From: Lachnospiraceae bacterium
GTDB lineage: Bacteria; Bacillota; Clostridia; Lachnospirales; Lachnospiraceae
Direction: 5' to 3'
Length of the DNA stretch: 64,000 bases
Assembly: GCA_900168235.1 (NCBI GenBank)
Contig: FUZG01000001.1
Location: 62,001-126,000, forward strand
The position numbers and the translations under genes were made by a program. The notes below the pieces were generated by a model. It did no database searches, was not told the DNA's origin, and was given only the letters and a program-made list of their open reading frames with translations. Positions 11,183 through 46,462 of the stretch are shown here, in pieces. Every line of letters begins with the position of its first letter. Position 1 is the stretch's first letter.

Positions 11183-12664
11183 ATGAAAAAGATATCACAG
11201 AGTCATCTGGCTGATCTGATCATCACACATCGTAAAAATAAATCCATCACACAGGCTCAGCTCTCTGAGATAACCGGTGTGAACCGCACTATGCTGAGCC
11301 GTATCGAGTCCGGTGACTACATCCCGTCTCTCCAGCAGCTCACAGCCATCGCAAATACACTTGATTTCGACCCTGCCGAGATCTTTGTATCTGCCGATGA
11401 AAAGGAACCCGAAAAGGTTTCTCCCCTTAATATCGCAGTTGCAGGCACAGGCTACGTAGGTCTCTCCCTCGCAGTGCTCCTGGCACAGCATAACCACGTT
11501 ACAGCTGTTGACATCATGCAGAGCAAGGTTGACCTCATCAACAGCAAAAAGTCTCCTATTCAGGATGATTACATTGAGCGTTATCTTGAGGAAAAGGAGC
11601 TCGACCTCACTGCTACTACTGACGGGGAGAGCGCATATAAAAACGCCGACTTTGTCATCATCGCAACACCTACAAACTACGACTCAAAGACTAATTATTT
11701 CGATACTTCCGCTGTTGAGAGCGTTATCGAGATGGTAAAGCGCGTTAATCCGGATGCCATCATGGTCATTAAGTCTACTATCCCTGTAGGCTACACCAAA
11801 TCTGTAAGAAAGAAGTTCGGCACAGATAATATCATTTTCAGCCCTGAGTTCCTCCGTGAGTCAAAGGCGCTGTATGACAACCTCTATCCTTCACGTATCA
11901 TCGTAGGCACTGATGCTGATAATGAAAAGCTTACCAAAGCTGCCAATACTTTTGCCGCACTCCTTCAGGAAGGCGCCATCAAGGAAGGCATTGATACACT
12001 TATCATGGGTCTCACAGAGGCAGAGGCGGTTAAGCTCTTTGCTAATACTTATCTCGCACTCCGTGTTTCCTACTTTAACGAGCTAGATACTTATGCTGAA
12101 TCTAAGTCTCTGAACACTCAGGAGATCATTAACGGCATCTGTCTCGATCCCCGTATCGGAACACACTACAATAACCCGTCCTTTGGTTACGGCGGATACT
12201 GTCTCCCGAAGGATACTAAGCAGCTCCTTGCTAATTACAAGGATGTTCCGGAAAATCTTATTAAAGCTATCGTTGATTCTAACCGCACCAGAAAGGACTT
12301 TATCGCTGACCGCGTCCTTGCCATGGCAGGTTACTATGATTACGATGATGACAATACTTACGAGGCTGAGAAGGAGAAAAATGTCGTGATCGGCGTTTAC
12401 AGACTTACTATGAAGTCAAACTCCGACAACTTCCGCCAGTCTGCGATCCAGGGTATCATGAAACGCATCAAGGCTAAGGGCGCTACTGTTATCATCTACG
12501 AGCCCACACTTGAAAATGGCTCTACTTTCTTCGGAAGCGTGGTCGTAAATGACCTCAAGAAGTTTAAGGCAAAGAGCCAGTCCATCATCGCTAACCGCTA
12601 CAGCAACAAGCTTGATGATGTCCGCGATAAGGTTTATACACGAGATCTGTTCCAGAGAGATTAA
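11183..12664 (+). CDS. XRE-type HTH fused to nucleotide-sugar dehydrogenase
   Basis: A 493-residue protein. Residues 5-70 form a canonical Cro/C1-type helix-turn-helix ([24 protein letters not shown]). Residues 82-490 form a UDP-glucose/GDP-mannose dehydrogenase with NAD-binding GTGYVG (88-93), PEFLRES, and catalytic Cys340 in [13 protein letters not shown]. Such enzymes oxidise the C6 hydroxyl of a nucleotide sugar to a carboxylate using two NAD+, supplying uronic acids for capsule or wall polymers. The fusion is continuous, with no stop or frameshift between halves, so it may be a sugar- or NADH-sensing regulator that is also an enzyme. It neighbours the TagA-type transferase, supporting an envelope polysaccharide role. 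The ribosome site AAAGAG is modest. Confidence 0.92.
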
Positions 12665-12678
12665 ACTCTGGATGTATT

Positions 12679-12899
12679 TAGTCTAAAGTGACGGAAGTGG
12701 TGAGCGTTGTTTCCAACGCATCCCGGGGAACCGACACGACGGTGAGCTAACTGCAACTTCGACTACAGCACGCAGAGCATTTGCTTTCAGTATCGCTCTT
12801 GCTCTGCGTGCAGAGTCCCCGTATGCAGTGGATCTCACCTGTGCGGTTCAAAACGGGATGCTTATGGAAAGCAACGCTCACCACTTCCTGTTTTTGACT
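12679..12899 (+). repeat. Structured ~220-nt element, copy 1
   Basis: One long imperfect hairpin with outer arms GGAAGTGGTGAGCGTTG (12693-12709) and CAACGCTCACCACTTCC (12872-12888). Moving inward come paired TTTCCA/TGGAAA, GCATCCCG/CGGGATGC, GAACCG/CGGTTC, GGTGAG/CTCACC, ACTGC/GCAGT and a tip hairpin GCACGCAGAGCA/TGCTCTGCGTGC with a 20-nt loop. A U-run (TGTTTTT) follows, so on the plus strand it could also end the dehydrogenase transcript. The reverse-oriented copy at 46242-46462 shares the inner boxes and terminal loop but has different stem sequences. I recognise no known RNA family. Confidence 0.7.
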
Positions 12900-12934
12900 G
12901 CTTAAATTATTTTGCGCAGCTGTATTCTTTCGTT

Positions 12935-13135
12935 TTAATCTAACAGAGGAGCAATCTCTGCCATGAGATTATTCTTAAAATCCTCTGTCATCGCTGACCT
13001 GAATTTAAACTTTGGCATTGCATCCGGCGTAGCTTCTTTGTATGCCGTATAATCTGCCTTGTCCTTGAAGAAGGGCAGGCAATGTACAGGTTTCATTAAT
13101 GGGGAACTACTCATAAGCATCCTTATGTAATGCAC
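12935..13135 (-). CDS. Small unrecognised protein (possible remnant)
   Basis: An open frame of 66 residues if translation starts at the GTG at 13135, which has GGAGG nine bases upstream; the frame stays open further to 13189. The C-terminal two thirds (from MKPVHCLPFFKDKADY to the end) look like real protein, with a helical acidic tail. I recognise no domain. It could be a small gene or the C-terminal remnant of a larger one. It lies between the structured element and the toxin-antitoxin pair, a region with other gene debris. Confidence 0.3.
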   Translation of the reverse strand: MHYIRMLMSSSPLMKPVHCLPFFKDKADYTAYKEATPDAMPKFKFRSAMTEDFKNNLMAEIAPLLD

Positions 13136-13244
13136 ATGTTCGCACCTCCATAAAGTTTCTTGGAGGTTAGGCTTGCCGGCTTGCGTCATCTCTTGCTTAC
13201 ATATATCATTCTACGGAACGCCACGGAATAAATCGTTCGTCAAA

Positions 13245-13264
13245 CGGTCAACTTCTGTTGACCG
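13245..13264. repeat. Inverted repeat
   Basis: CGGTCAAC-TTCT-GTTGACCG, a perfect 8-bp stem, with another GTCAAC copy close by at about 13268. It may be an operator or a hairpin; its role is unknown. Confidence 0.35.
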
Positions 13265-13295
13265 GTAGTCAACTCAAAAAAGTAAAAAAGAAAAG

Positions 13296-13322
13296 ACGTA
13301 TGAAACCAAATGTCTCATACGC
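13296..13322 (-). terminator. Terminator of the dinJ-relE operon
   Basis: Stem CGTATGA/TCATACG with an 11-nt loop, followed on the minus strand by a long U-rich tract (CTTTTCTTTTTT). It lies 17 nt after the toxin stop codon. Confidence 0.7.
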
Positions 13323-13338
13323 CTCATAGGATTTATGA

Positions 13339-13668
13339 TTATAACTTTGTAAATTCATCAAGCTGCTTATCTACATCTCTTCCGGAATACATAACCCGAA
13401 TCACTGTAACCAATTTCTTTATCTTATCGGGGATATAGAAAATAACATAATTATCAACAGGCACAACTCGTGTATTTCGACTCTTCCAGGGCTCTCTTTC
13501 ATATTGCCGGAACTTCTCCGGATATTCTCCCAAGGAAAGGATTTTTTCTTCGATCCGGTCAAGCTGTCCGGCTGCATTCTCAGGCGAAAGAAGATCAAAT
13601 GCTATATACTCAAAGATACCGCGAAGATCGTTCTCAGCCTGCTCCGTAAAGGTAACATCATATTTCAT
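13339..13668 (-). CDS. RelE/ParE-family toxin
   Basis: A 109-residue RelE/ParE-fold protein. It starts YDVTFTEQAENDLRGIFEYIA, followed by PENAAGQLDRIEEKI, and ends with the core strands RVVPVDNYVIFYIPD and VTVIRVMYSGRD. Family members are ribosome-dependent mRNA endonucleases (RelE) or gyrase inhibitors (ParE); this sequence alone does not decide which. The start overlaps the antitoxin stop by 4 nt (ATGA), the standard arrangement of type II pairs. A terminator follows. Confidence 0.9.
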   Translation of the reverse strand: MKYDVTFTEQAENDLRGIFEYIAFDLLSPENAAGQLDRIEEKILSLGEYPEKFRQYEREPWKSRNTRVVPVDNYVIFYIPDKIKKLVTVIRVMYSGRDVDKQLDEFTKL

Positions 13669-17520: not shown

Positions 17521-19131
17521 TTATGCTACCTTAATTCCACTGTTTAATACTTTAACCTTATGAGCCTTGATCCATGAGATCAGGGCCTTTTCTTTATGAT
17601 AGTGTGTCTCAAAAGTCTTGACACATTTATCCTTGTCTATATTCTGCGTTTTAGGTTCATAGCAGTAGAGCAGGAACGATGAATACCAGTCTCTTTGAAC
17701 CTCAGTGCCATCCTTAAGTCTATACAATCTGTCGGACAGCTTCTTTTTTATATAGTCATCAGCCGTATGGTCATACTGCGAAGCCCTGTAATTGTTTGGT
17801 ACTTCCGTATAAGTGCCACCTGTAGTCTTGAACTTTCTTTCAACCGTAGACTGGAACCCGCCGGGGCATCTGTTCTTTACTGACTTGCCGAAACGTTTCT
17901 TCTTGTTGAACTTACCTTTATCATTTTTCGTGGCTTCCTTAGCCCGCTTCATGAGCTTTCTTGCGTTCTTTGGCTCAGTAATAAATGTATCTCCAAGACT
18001 TCGCAAATGGTTGGCGTCCTCATTTATCGCAAGCTGCCTGTTAACTGCATTGATGCGACATAATTCGGAATGTCTGGCTTTCAGCTTCTTATAATGGTTA
18101 GAGTATTTCCAGGTCTTACGACCTTTCTTAACAGTACCATCCTCATTATAGTTCTGAGGGTTGGTTGCCCGTCTTGACCTGTCCATAGCACGATAGAACA
18201 GGCGCTCCTTTCGTTCGGATGTCTGTATACTGTTGCCACGTTCTGCAAGGTTCTTCAGACCGACTTCCGTATCAGATGTATATGCAACTGTCTGCGTCCC
18301 GATGTCAGCACCTATCATGCCCCTGCCATACTTATGACGGGGATTACCATGCTTATCATATTTAGGTTTTGCCTTACCCTCGATAGTCAGATGCAGATAT
18401 ACTCTGTATTTACCTCTTATCATTTTTGGAACCAGTGTTGCATAGCAGGGTCTGTATGTATCCATGCAGTAAGCATCCTCGATTAACGTGCTGACAGCCT
18501 TTTTGTCAATGACTTCAGGTTCGGAAAGATACGACAGGACAGCATTTAATTCGTCCTGCTGGAACCTGTCGTTTATCTGTATCCCAAAGACAGTTTTTCC
18601 AAGTTTGAACCATAGTCCGTTATCCTTTACAGATATCGGTATGCCACGGTTTATCTGTTTTGCCCGTATACAGGGAAGCTCCCCATATTTCAAGAAATGT
18701 ATGCTCTTACCATTACCATAAAGGCATTTCTCGATACCACGCCAGACATCTTCTGCTTTTGTTAAGGCAAATACAGCGTCTATTCCATATTTCTTACCTA
18801 TCGGAATCATCGAAGTCCTGCAGTGTTCCCATGTAACATTATAGGATTTCTGCATTTCGTTAAGCTGACCGGCAAAGGTCTTGCGCTTGGCTTTATCCTC
18901 TGTATTGCCATACAGAGACAATAGTTTGCGGTATCTTTTTGTACGCAAAAGCTGGTCATAGTTCTTTCTCATAAGACCAACAAGTTCGTTACCTGCCCTG
19001 CGGATCTTGCCAGAAAGAGCCACGACCTTAAGCACATCGGAATAAGGCATATCTGTCTCAGCGACTAAAATATGCCTGTCGGAAAGCTTATGGAATTTCT
19101 TCAGTGTCTTACTGTAATCGCCATCAGTCAT
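17521..19131 (-). CDS. tnpB: TnpB-type RNA-guided nuclease of the IS605-type element
   Basis: A protein of 536 residues from the ATG at 19131 (GAGGAG ten bases upstream); the in-frame TTG at 19149 lies in that site. The RuvC-like core is visible: MIGADIGTQTVAY (first Asp), DTFITEPKNARKL (Glu) and QRDWYSSFLLY (last Asp). The zinc-ribbon between the last two normally has two CxxC pairs, but here the matching segment (NNYRASQYDHTADDY ... KDGTEVQRD) has none. TnpB proteins cut DNA next to the target motif, directed by RNA from the element's right end, which favours element retention. It overlaps tnpA slightly. Confidence 0.88.
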   Translation of the reverse strand: MTDGDYSKTLKKFHKLSDRHILVAETDMPYSDVLKVVALSGKIRRAGNELVGLMRKNYDQLLRTKRYRKLLSLYGNTEDKAKRKTFAGQLNEMQKSYNVTWEHCRTSMIPIGKKYGIDAVFALTKAEDVWRGIEKCLYGNGKSIHFLKYGELPCIRAKQINRGIPISVKDNGLWFKLGKTVFGIQINDRFQQDELNAVLSYLSEPEVIDKKAVSTLIEDAYCMDTYRPCYATLVPKMIRGKYRVYLHLTIEGKAKPKYDKHGNPRHKYGRGMIGADIGTQTVAYTSDTEVGLKNLAERGNSIQTSERKERLFYRAMDRSRRATNPQNYNEDGTVKKGRKTWKYSNHYKKLKARHSELCRINAVNRQLAINEDANHLRSLGDTFITEPKNARKLMKRAKEATKNDKGKFNKKKRFGKSVKNRCPGGFQSTVERKFKTTGGTYTEVPNNYRASQYDHTADDYIKKKLSDRLYRLKDGTEVQRDWYSSFLLYCYEPKTQNIDKDKCVKTFETHYHKEKALISWIKAHKVKVLNSGIKVA

Positions 19132-19537
19132 GACTTTTTTGCTCCTCAATATACCTAATTACTGTAGCTTCGCTTATATGCCCTACCGTAGATACAATAT
19201 ATCCTTTTGACCATAAAACACCGCATCTTGCATAGAATCTTTTAAGCTGTGGGAATGCCTTAAACAGTTCTATTGCGCTGATACTTTTTAGAGTCCTGAC
19301 AACATCGCATGGTGCAACAGTCTGTGGGACATCTATAAAAACATGTATATGGTCAGGCATTACTTCAAGTGCCTTGATGCGATAATTATAATCATCGCAG
19401 ATTTTTTGAAGTATCAGCTTGAGCGTATCTTCCACATTGCCCTTTAATACTGAAAACCTGAATTTAGGACACCAGATGATATGATACTGTATGAGATATT
19501 TGCAATGCGAAGCACTATGATATTGTTCCTCACTCAT
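19124..19537 (-). CDS. tnpA: TnpA, Y1 HUH transposase
   Basis: A 137-residue IS200/IS605 transposase of normal size. The metal-binding HUH motif is DHIHVFID, and the catalytic tyrosine lies in the C-terminal helix VIRYIEEQ. YHIIWCPKFR near the N-terminus is typical. It excises and inserts the element as single-stranded DNA circles through the hairpin ends. It overlaps the RHH gene by 8 nt upstream and tnpB downstream. Confidence 0.95.
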   Translation of the reverse strand: MSEEQYHSASHCKYLIQYHIIWCPKFRFSVLKGNVEDTLKLILQKICDDYNYRIKALEVMPDHIHVFIDVPQTVAPCDVVRTLKSISAIELFKAFPQLKRFYARCGVLWSKGYIVSTVGHISEATVIRYIEEQKSHD

Positions 19538-46241: not shown

Positions 46242-46462
46242 TATGGTGACGCGGGGAGGGGAGTGCGTTGTTTTCCATAAGCATCCCGTTTAGAACCGCA
46301 CAGGTGAGATCCACTGCTTACGAAGTCTTAGCGCCCAGGACATGAGCTATACTTGAAGCGAATGTCCTAGGGCGCTTATGACGAAGTCAGCAGTTAGCTC
46401 ACCGTAGTGTCGGTTCCCCGGGATGTGTTGGAAACAACGCACTCCCCTCCCCACGCCACATA
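46242..46462 (-). repeat. Structured ~220-nt element, copy 2
   Basis: Reverse-oriented partner of the 12679-12899 element. Outer arms pair over about 27 nt (GGGGAGGGGAGTGCGTTG against CAACGCACTCCCCTCCCC), a sequence unrelated to the outer arms of copy 1. The inner boxes are nearly identical: ATCCCGGGGAACCGACAC, GGTGAGCTAACTGC, GCAGTGGATCTCACCTGTGC and AACGGGATGCTTATGGAAA. The tip stem AGCGCCC.AGGACAT/ATGTCCT.GGGCGCT also differs from copy 1, but its loop (GCTTCAAGTATAGCTC) matches. It lies between two divergent promoters, outside both transcripts. Confidence 0.7.

Follow-up and report, generated by a model that had tools for sequence, protein, structure and literature searches.

Two copies of a giant imperfect hairpin lie in the window (the whole 64,000-nucleotide stretch of DNA analysed here), at 12679–12899 on the forward strand (copy 1) and at 46242–46462 on the reverse strand (copy 2). 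Alignment confirms that the internal boxes named in a preliminary description of this DNA are kept in both. The hairpin of copy 1 begins at position 12693, downstream of a gene that ends at 12664. Copy 2 is located between the starts of divergent elongation-factor-G-like and prephenate dehydrogenase genes. The product of the gene upstream of copy 1 (11183–12664) resembles UDP-glucose dehydrogenase and carries an HTH domain at its N terminus, a fusion that seems unusual, and a ParE-like toxin gene is found downstream of the copy (13339–13668).

Each copy is self-complementary, as had been proposed, and folds into a long imperfect hairpin. The fold energy is −124.7 kcal/mol for copy 1 (mean −69.4 kcal/mol for dinucleotide shuffles; z −12.4) and −140.1 kcal/mol for copy 2 (mean −73.85 kcal/mol; z −14.2), and in neither case was any of 200 shuffles as low. 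The consensus pairs are Watson–Crick in 63 of 63 positions in copy 1 and copy 2 alike. The architecture is that of an unpaired 5′ tetranucleotide (TGAC or GGAC) followed by a single imperfect hairpin of about 180–205 nt with conserved asymmetric internal loops (Table 1). Within the interval first assigned to copy 1, the hairpin proper is the segment listed in Table 1; the remainder is the tag and flanking DNA, part of which also base-pairs in the fold. The outer arms and tip stem, previously described as unrelated between the two copies, proved on alignment to be diverged but recognizably homologous, and one consensus arm is common to most of the 15 aligned copies of the genome.

Table 1. Features of the two hairpin copies in the window
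Feature	Position	Strand	Basis or remark
Unpaired tag TGAC, 5′ foot of copy 1	12689..12692	+	GGAC in other genera
Copy 1, giant imperfect hairpin, 196 nt	12693..12888	+	Fold, consensus pairs, covariation
Copy 1, 5′ conserved boxes ATCCCGGGGAACCGACAC and GGTGAGCTAACTGC	12720..12754	+	Alignments
Copy 1, variable tip stem and terminal loop (approximate)	12764..12818	+	Fold, alignments
Copy 1, 3′ conserved boxes GCAGTGGATCTCACC, GTGCGGTTC, CGGGATGCTTATGGAAA	12825..12870	+	Alignments
Copy 2, same element, diverged outer arm	46249..46458	-	Fold; site without element in G014, G031, G009

Distribution of the family

Both copies are real, and the family to which they belong is far larger than the pair first recognized. 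A covariance-model search of the window's own genome (G000) and of related genomes, a check of the kind that had been proposed, returned 17 matches at home, some of them damaged, and relatives in other genera. By blastn, the same genome gives 29 rows, some of which are fragments and one of which is copy 1 matching its own opposite strand. A DNA search of 61 genomes (own included) matched six, all from the window's genus. Relatives are present in six other genera of the same bacterial family, with up to 33 matches per genome. Six of 150 genomes of the family match a 26-core model (the window's genome, G086, G117, G120, G162 and G169; the two G169 matches, which have longer tips, were excluded from later counts), and within the genus of G162 four of the five genomes match, with 26, 33, 17 and 7 matches. 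The seven matches in G213 score only 28–30 bits; the conserved boxes were seen in five of them, the other two lying outside the sequence slice inspected for boxes, and the G213 region L290 yielded no hairpin on extraction. When a strict motif pattern was run over 392 genomes of the order, three matched: the window's genome, G477 (seven copies) and G302, whose single match looks like chance. This pattern misses G120, which the covariance model found. A pattern search of genome contigs located six loci in three Lachnospiraceae genomes (Lachnospiraceae bacterium MC2017, NK4A144 and isolate RUI304). No element match was obtained in phages and plasmids, nor in viral contigs in one pattern scan. The family is dispersed, mostly intergenic and patchily distributed between species; its carriers are some gut and rumen bacteria.

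Scores alone are a poor guide to membership. The reverse complement of window-type elements scores 38–75 bits with model R1 at nine of nine loci, so that 30–70 bits is not by itself proof of kinship; what led us to accept the other genera as kin is a pair of boxes, each about 25 nt long, that lie on either side of the tip and keep their order and strand. Alignment A2 comprises 29 copies, partial ones such as L014 and L016–L021 being left out, and alignment A3 uses 26 (L010, L043 and L046 were left out).

Several loci carry additional structure. In several copies of the window's genome (L006, L007, L008, L011, L016), the element is followed downstream by another giant hairpin repeat, 'B', which has a conserved core of its own and arms that are variable and compensated. 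At L044 and L047, conservation is lower behind the element than within it. A divergent core at L032 and L037 (G030) is set between short inverted hairpins with GGGACGGTCC that replace the usual arms, and at L128 (G086) the element is contained within a nearly perfect 379-nt palindrome, bounded likewise by GGAC and TGG. Inverted pairs of elements occur at L232, L240, L252, L253, L273–L275, L283 and L289, with their 3′ ends facing each other 89–279 nt apart; the nine spacers look unrelated by eye, and no conserved spacer was seen.

Covariation and the nature of the mismatches

The hairpin structure is real and conserved. In A2 (29 copies), 97.5% of 1,805 pair cells hold a standard pair, both sides change in 40 of 63 pairs, and the covariation score is 0.255, compared with 0.104 for shuffled and at most 0.080 for slid controls. 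For the other genera, 36 rows (34 of them distinct) form pairs in 92.2% of 1,440 cells, with changes on both sides in 50 of 53 pairs and a score of 0.546, compared with 0.154 shuffled and at most 0.106 slid; this alignment was fitted to the model, which favours its covariation. Kin sequences can beat shuffles without structure; the slid controls are likewise far lower. A lack of covariation in further copies had been set beforehand as grounds for abandoning the element, and covariation is strong in both sets.

Conserved loops with covarying stems are one mark of a functional RNA class, whose transcribed copies would fold into a rod that binds proteins at its internal loops, with stem covariation maintained by selection for RNA structure. 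We consider such a class unlikely. A drawn strand that acts as RNA should show more G·U than A·C departures. In the 29 copies of A2 there is no G·U excess on the drawn strand (27 G·T versus 27 A·C among 1,805 pair cells), whereas a control of 26 RNase P RNAs of the genus (used from 30 loci) gives 223 G·T versus 9 A·C. An unbiased arm-to-arm alignment, counted differently from the RNase P control, yields 16 isolated GT versus 28 AC in 27 window-type copies (27 of the 29 in A2). The corresponding figures are 13 versus 28 in 33 other-genera hairpins, the ends of which were chosen by a GGAC-like tag plus TG and are poor for some (for example, L202, L195 and L145). We read no preference for the opposite strand from these mismatches, because some of them share ancestry. 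The one count that favours the RNA class comes from alignment A4 of the other genera, with 46 GT versus 16 AC on a newly predicted structure, which favours G·U by construction; on the model structure the counts are 47 and 42, which makes this set ambiguous.

There are further points against the RNA class. No promoter-like site was found in 12600–13400, where 1.4 would be expected by chance. No Rfam family exceeds its threshold, in agreement with the earlier statement that no named RNA family could be recognized: the window gives no match, and the matches on the element are all sub-threshold, one of them being of miRNA type, on L203 (26.5 bits versus a threshold of 87). Taken as base counts, the mismatches appear to give no clear RNA-like signature, which is not proof of DNA. 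Given the dispersed copies, the empty sister sites (below) and the lack of a clear G·U preference, the element does not look like a simple RNA gene. The element had been proposed to be a selected RNA or single-stranded DNA structure: the conserved structure stands, and RNA from the drawn strand is not clearly favoured.

Arms, constraint, mobility and placement

When arms were extended outward, with ends not imposed, 13 of 22 other-genera hairpins ended exactly behind GGAC and before TG. A total of 64 hairpins was extracted from G162, G210 and G212, of which 61 are 180–191 nt long; the extraction demanded one of six tag spellings, then TG, and pairing of no fewer than 10 of the 12 end bases, and the tag and TG in this set are therefore partly there by construction. 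Between the arms (first 28 bases) of a single genome, 14 of 276, 19 of 378 and 8 of 66 pairs in these three genomes lie above the 99% level for shuffled arms, and strongly alike pairs among these number 3, 2 and 0. Most arms within a genome of the genus of G162 are thus unrelated and locus-specific. At orthologous loci of G162 and G210, the same arms are mostly kept.

Some orthologous loci show how arms can change in place. In L192, compared with its orthologue L256, the inner stem has a 3′ side that has become the perfect complement of a 5′ side common to both. Because L256 keeps loops found in other copies, we take L192 to be the changed member, and its stem appears to have been 'perfected' in one template-switch-like event. 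In L249/L258 and L244/L288, the middle tract is replaced and the outer arms are unchanged, as in gene conversion. L250/L270 looks like a central-tract replacement, with only the upstream flank aligned, and the arms of L240- and L252- show several differences, gaps among them, with counterparts on the opposite side.

These changes bear on a very improbable explanation, namely that the hairpins are a by-product, in which template switching during replication would by itself keep quasi-palindromes self-complementary and structure would be under no selection. The L192/L256 change is of the right kind, equal GT and AC departures fit a copying process, and the mechanism has been described for RNA hairpins (PMC8794818, in its accessible part). 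Yet template switching alone is not the whole story, because in full it would erase the asymmetric loops, which are conserved and persist in nearly all copies seen; the orthologous copies in G014, G031 and G009 are also very little changed. We conclude that at least some of the maintenance of the arms is probably the work of template switching, which the accessible part of the same work presents as both maker and keeper of hairpins (PMC8794818). Covariation here is therefore not by itself proof of RNA. Compensatory change had initially been taken as the classic sign of selection; the strong covariation is present, and part of it can arise by template switching without selection.

At several shared sites, the element is better conserved than its surroundings. 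At one site shared by G014, G031 and G009, 201 of 202 aligned bases of the element are identical and the flanks are about 90% identical; at further shared sites in the same genomes, the element is identical at 198 of 199 and 134 of 134 bases (the 134-base copy is truncated), and the upstream DNA at 92.5–93%. Two cases are weaker. In the first, the element is identical at 204 of 204 bases with one gap, but so are the 54 aligned bases immediately upstream, and the remaining flanks are 94–97% alike; in the second, the element is identical at 199 of 202 bases, with a 3′ flank at 83% and a displaced 5′ flank 97.5% alike over 321 bases. The low difference counts have Poisson probabilities of 1e-5 to 2e-11, with rates taken from the flanks; exchange of regions between species may also yield such counts.

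Constraint is not uniform. Of 35 G162/G210 pairings that passed a flank screen, 10 were dropped for low identity, and the 11 of the remaining 25 with both flanks aligned were taken as orthologues. Element identity in these 11 pairs is 83–100%; it exceeds that of both flanks in 6 pairs, falls short of both in 3 and has an intermediate value in 2. One upstream region carries the element in four species (L021, L030, L031, L038), complete in two and truncated in two, which indicates that old insertions also decay.

Occupancy varies between close relatives. Six sites were examined, of which three (copy 2, L006 and L012) are empty in G014, G031 and G009; the L005 site has no sister match, L008 has a match to its 3′ flank only, and for copy 1 only the upstream gene is matched, the following DNA being different. 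At L012, three sister species have, by eye, a short terminator-like hairpin where G000 has the element. The difference between copy 2 and its empty site is not a clean insertion, and no clear target-site duplication was seen by eye at the three empty sites. A MITE would combine terminal inverted repeats with such a duplication; the arms here are inverted. Derivation of the arms from the target site is unsupported at copy 2, whose arm is missing from the empty site. A match to a known mobile element had been considered the other way in which a novel structured element could fail: dispersal and empty sites are mobile-element behaviour, yet the family fits no known mobile element tested.

One alternative is a purely selfish single-stranded DNA element of REP or IS200/605 type, without host function and with a structure that is the substrate of a Y1 transposase. 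REPs are built in this way, as a bulged hairpin with an adjoining 5′ tetranucleotide (PMC8266576, in its accessible part). Y1_Tnp is present in 16 of 37 genomes of the genus, and a Y1 transposase is encoded within the window at 19124–19537. We nevertheless judge this explanation to be quite unlikely. Three of the five carriers from other genera (G117, G120 and G169; 98–100% complete) have no Y1_Tnp match, G033 has 17 Y1_Tnp matches yet no blastn match to the element, and dead copies should not exceed neighbouring coding DNA in conservation. Among the 25 largest frame clusters from most loci fetched, there was no recurring transposase-like neighbour; the clusters otherwise consist of the element's own frames and true orthologous neighbourhoods, and one that we take to be sugar-kinase-like lies beside copies at four loci. 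In the window, the IS200-like Y1 transposase adjoins a 542-aa open frame (together 17521–19537) with no Pfam match at 1e-5.

Placement relative to genes differs between lineages. In G162, G210 and G212, a same-strand stop codon lies within 50 nt of the 5′ end in 31 of 64 hairpins, versus 2 of 64 in which an opposite-strand stop lies as close to the 3′ end (open reading frames were called mechanically, and orthologous copies were counted separately). Within 60 nt, sense versus antisense counts are 5 versus 0 of 15 in G086, 3 versus 5 of 14 in G000, 5 versus 3 of 13 in G014 and G031 together, 1 versus 1 of 5 in G117 and 0 versus 0 of 1 in G120. Judged by predicted frames, a sense 3′-UTR placement is clear in the genus of G162, suggested in another, and not seen in the window's genome. 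The sense placement in one genus (mostly 10–50 nt past stop codons) and the strong constraint at shared loci are both points in favour of the RNA class discussed above. An intrinsic terminator consists of a GC-rich hairpin and a U tract; copy 1 is followed by TGTTTTTGA, but T-richness is only partial in the consensus of the tails from the genus of G162.

Interpretation and relation to known systems

The explanation that we favour, and to which we give an even chance, is that these are giant REP-like mobile hairpins, the arms of which are partly rewritten by template switching and some of which serve as 3′-UTR hairpins. New copies would spread as DNA via a folded single strand, with the tag and bulges acting as recognition marks. 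After insertion, template switching within the hairpin would keep the arms complementary and sometimes rewrite them, as might gene conversion from one copy to another. Copies that lie shortly after a stop codon would be kept because they are transcribed as the 3′ hairpin of the mRNA, where they could act as a terminator or 3′-end stabiliser. Against this explanation stand the lack of stop-codon placement in the window's own genome, the failure to find a dedicated transposase, the want of a clear target-site duplication or of a clean insertion at copy 2, and the non-uniform constraint. A bolder proposal, which we regard as rather doubtful, is of a new kind of hereditary hairpin, in which only the loops, tag and overall length would be inherited as sequence and both arms would vary freely, rewritten in step by template switching. 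The identity of such an element would lie in its structure and not in its sequence; it would spread along a single-strand route that needs no Y1 transposase and would have a role as an mRNA 3′-end device.

Compensatory change is widely taken as strong evidence of functional RNA. In this natural family, which has many copies in a genome and orthologous copies in different species, the stems covary strongly, G·U is not clearly favoured and template-switch-like change is visible, and the share of covariation that comes from selection can be measured against the share that comes from copying. Long palindromes are thought to be unstable in bacteria, and the persistence of these ones is a direct question that the family raises.

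Among the papers listed in the literature searches, judged by titles and abstract openings and with subscription journals mostly outside the coverage, none treats the giant hairpin family. The closest likeness is to GTAG-type REPs with TnpA_REP (RAYT), which, in the accessible parts of the papers that describe them, are also intergenic and multi-copy, have an unpaired tetranucleotide at the foot and conserved mismatches, and occur both as single copies and as inverted pairs; these REPs are, however, 20–50 nt long, compared with 180–205 nt for the giant hairpins (PMC8266576, PMC3733652). The tag also differs, being TGAC or GGAC here and GTAG in the REPs as those partial accounts give it. The arms of the giant hairpins mostly differ by locus in one genus, and three carriers are without a Y1 transposase. 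Read on the opposite strand, the giant hairpins have GTCC at their end, and in about a quarter of them CCA precedes the start. This is a likeness to CGTC-tagged REPs, although tag and CCA appear to follow each other in the reverse order there (Neisseria examples). The CGTC-tagged REPs are likewise tagged hairpins without a dedicated transposase, but their stems of 8–9 bp and loops of 4–5 bases, as given in the accessible part of the source, make them far smaller (PMC3733652).

Two further systems share part of this description. The bcr1 repeats (about 150 nt) and other stem-loop repeats of the Bacillus cereus group are intergenic and structured, and some are found in UTR transcripts; the accessible parts of these papers report no copy-by-copy rewriting of arms, the comparison being one of descriptions rather than of sequences (PMC3446304, PMC2267715). 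In template-switch hairpins, reverse-complement copying creates and repairs stems, as may happen here, but those described in the accessible part of that work are RNA genes, whereas the family reported here is a dispersed repeat with conserved loops (PMC8794818). Of the known systems, the giant hairpins come closest to a REP, or to another kind of tagged palindromic repeat, enlarged several times, but they fail the tests that define those repeats.
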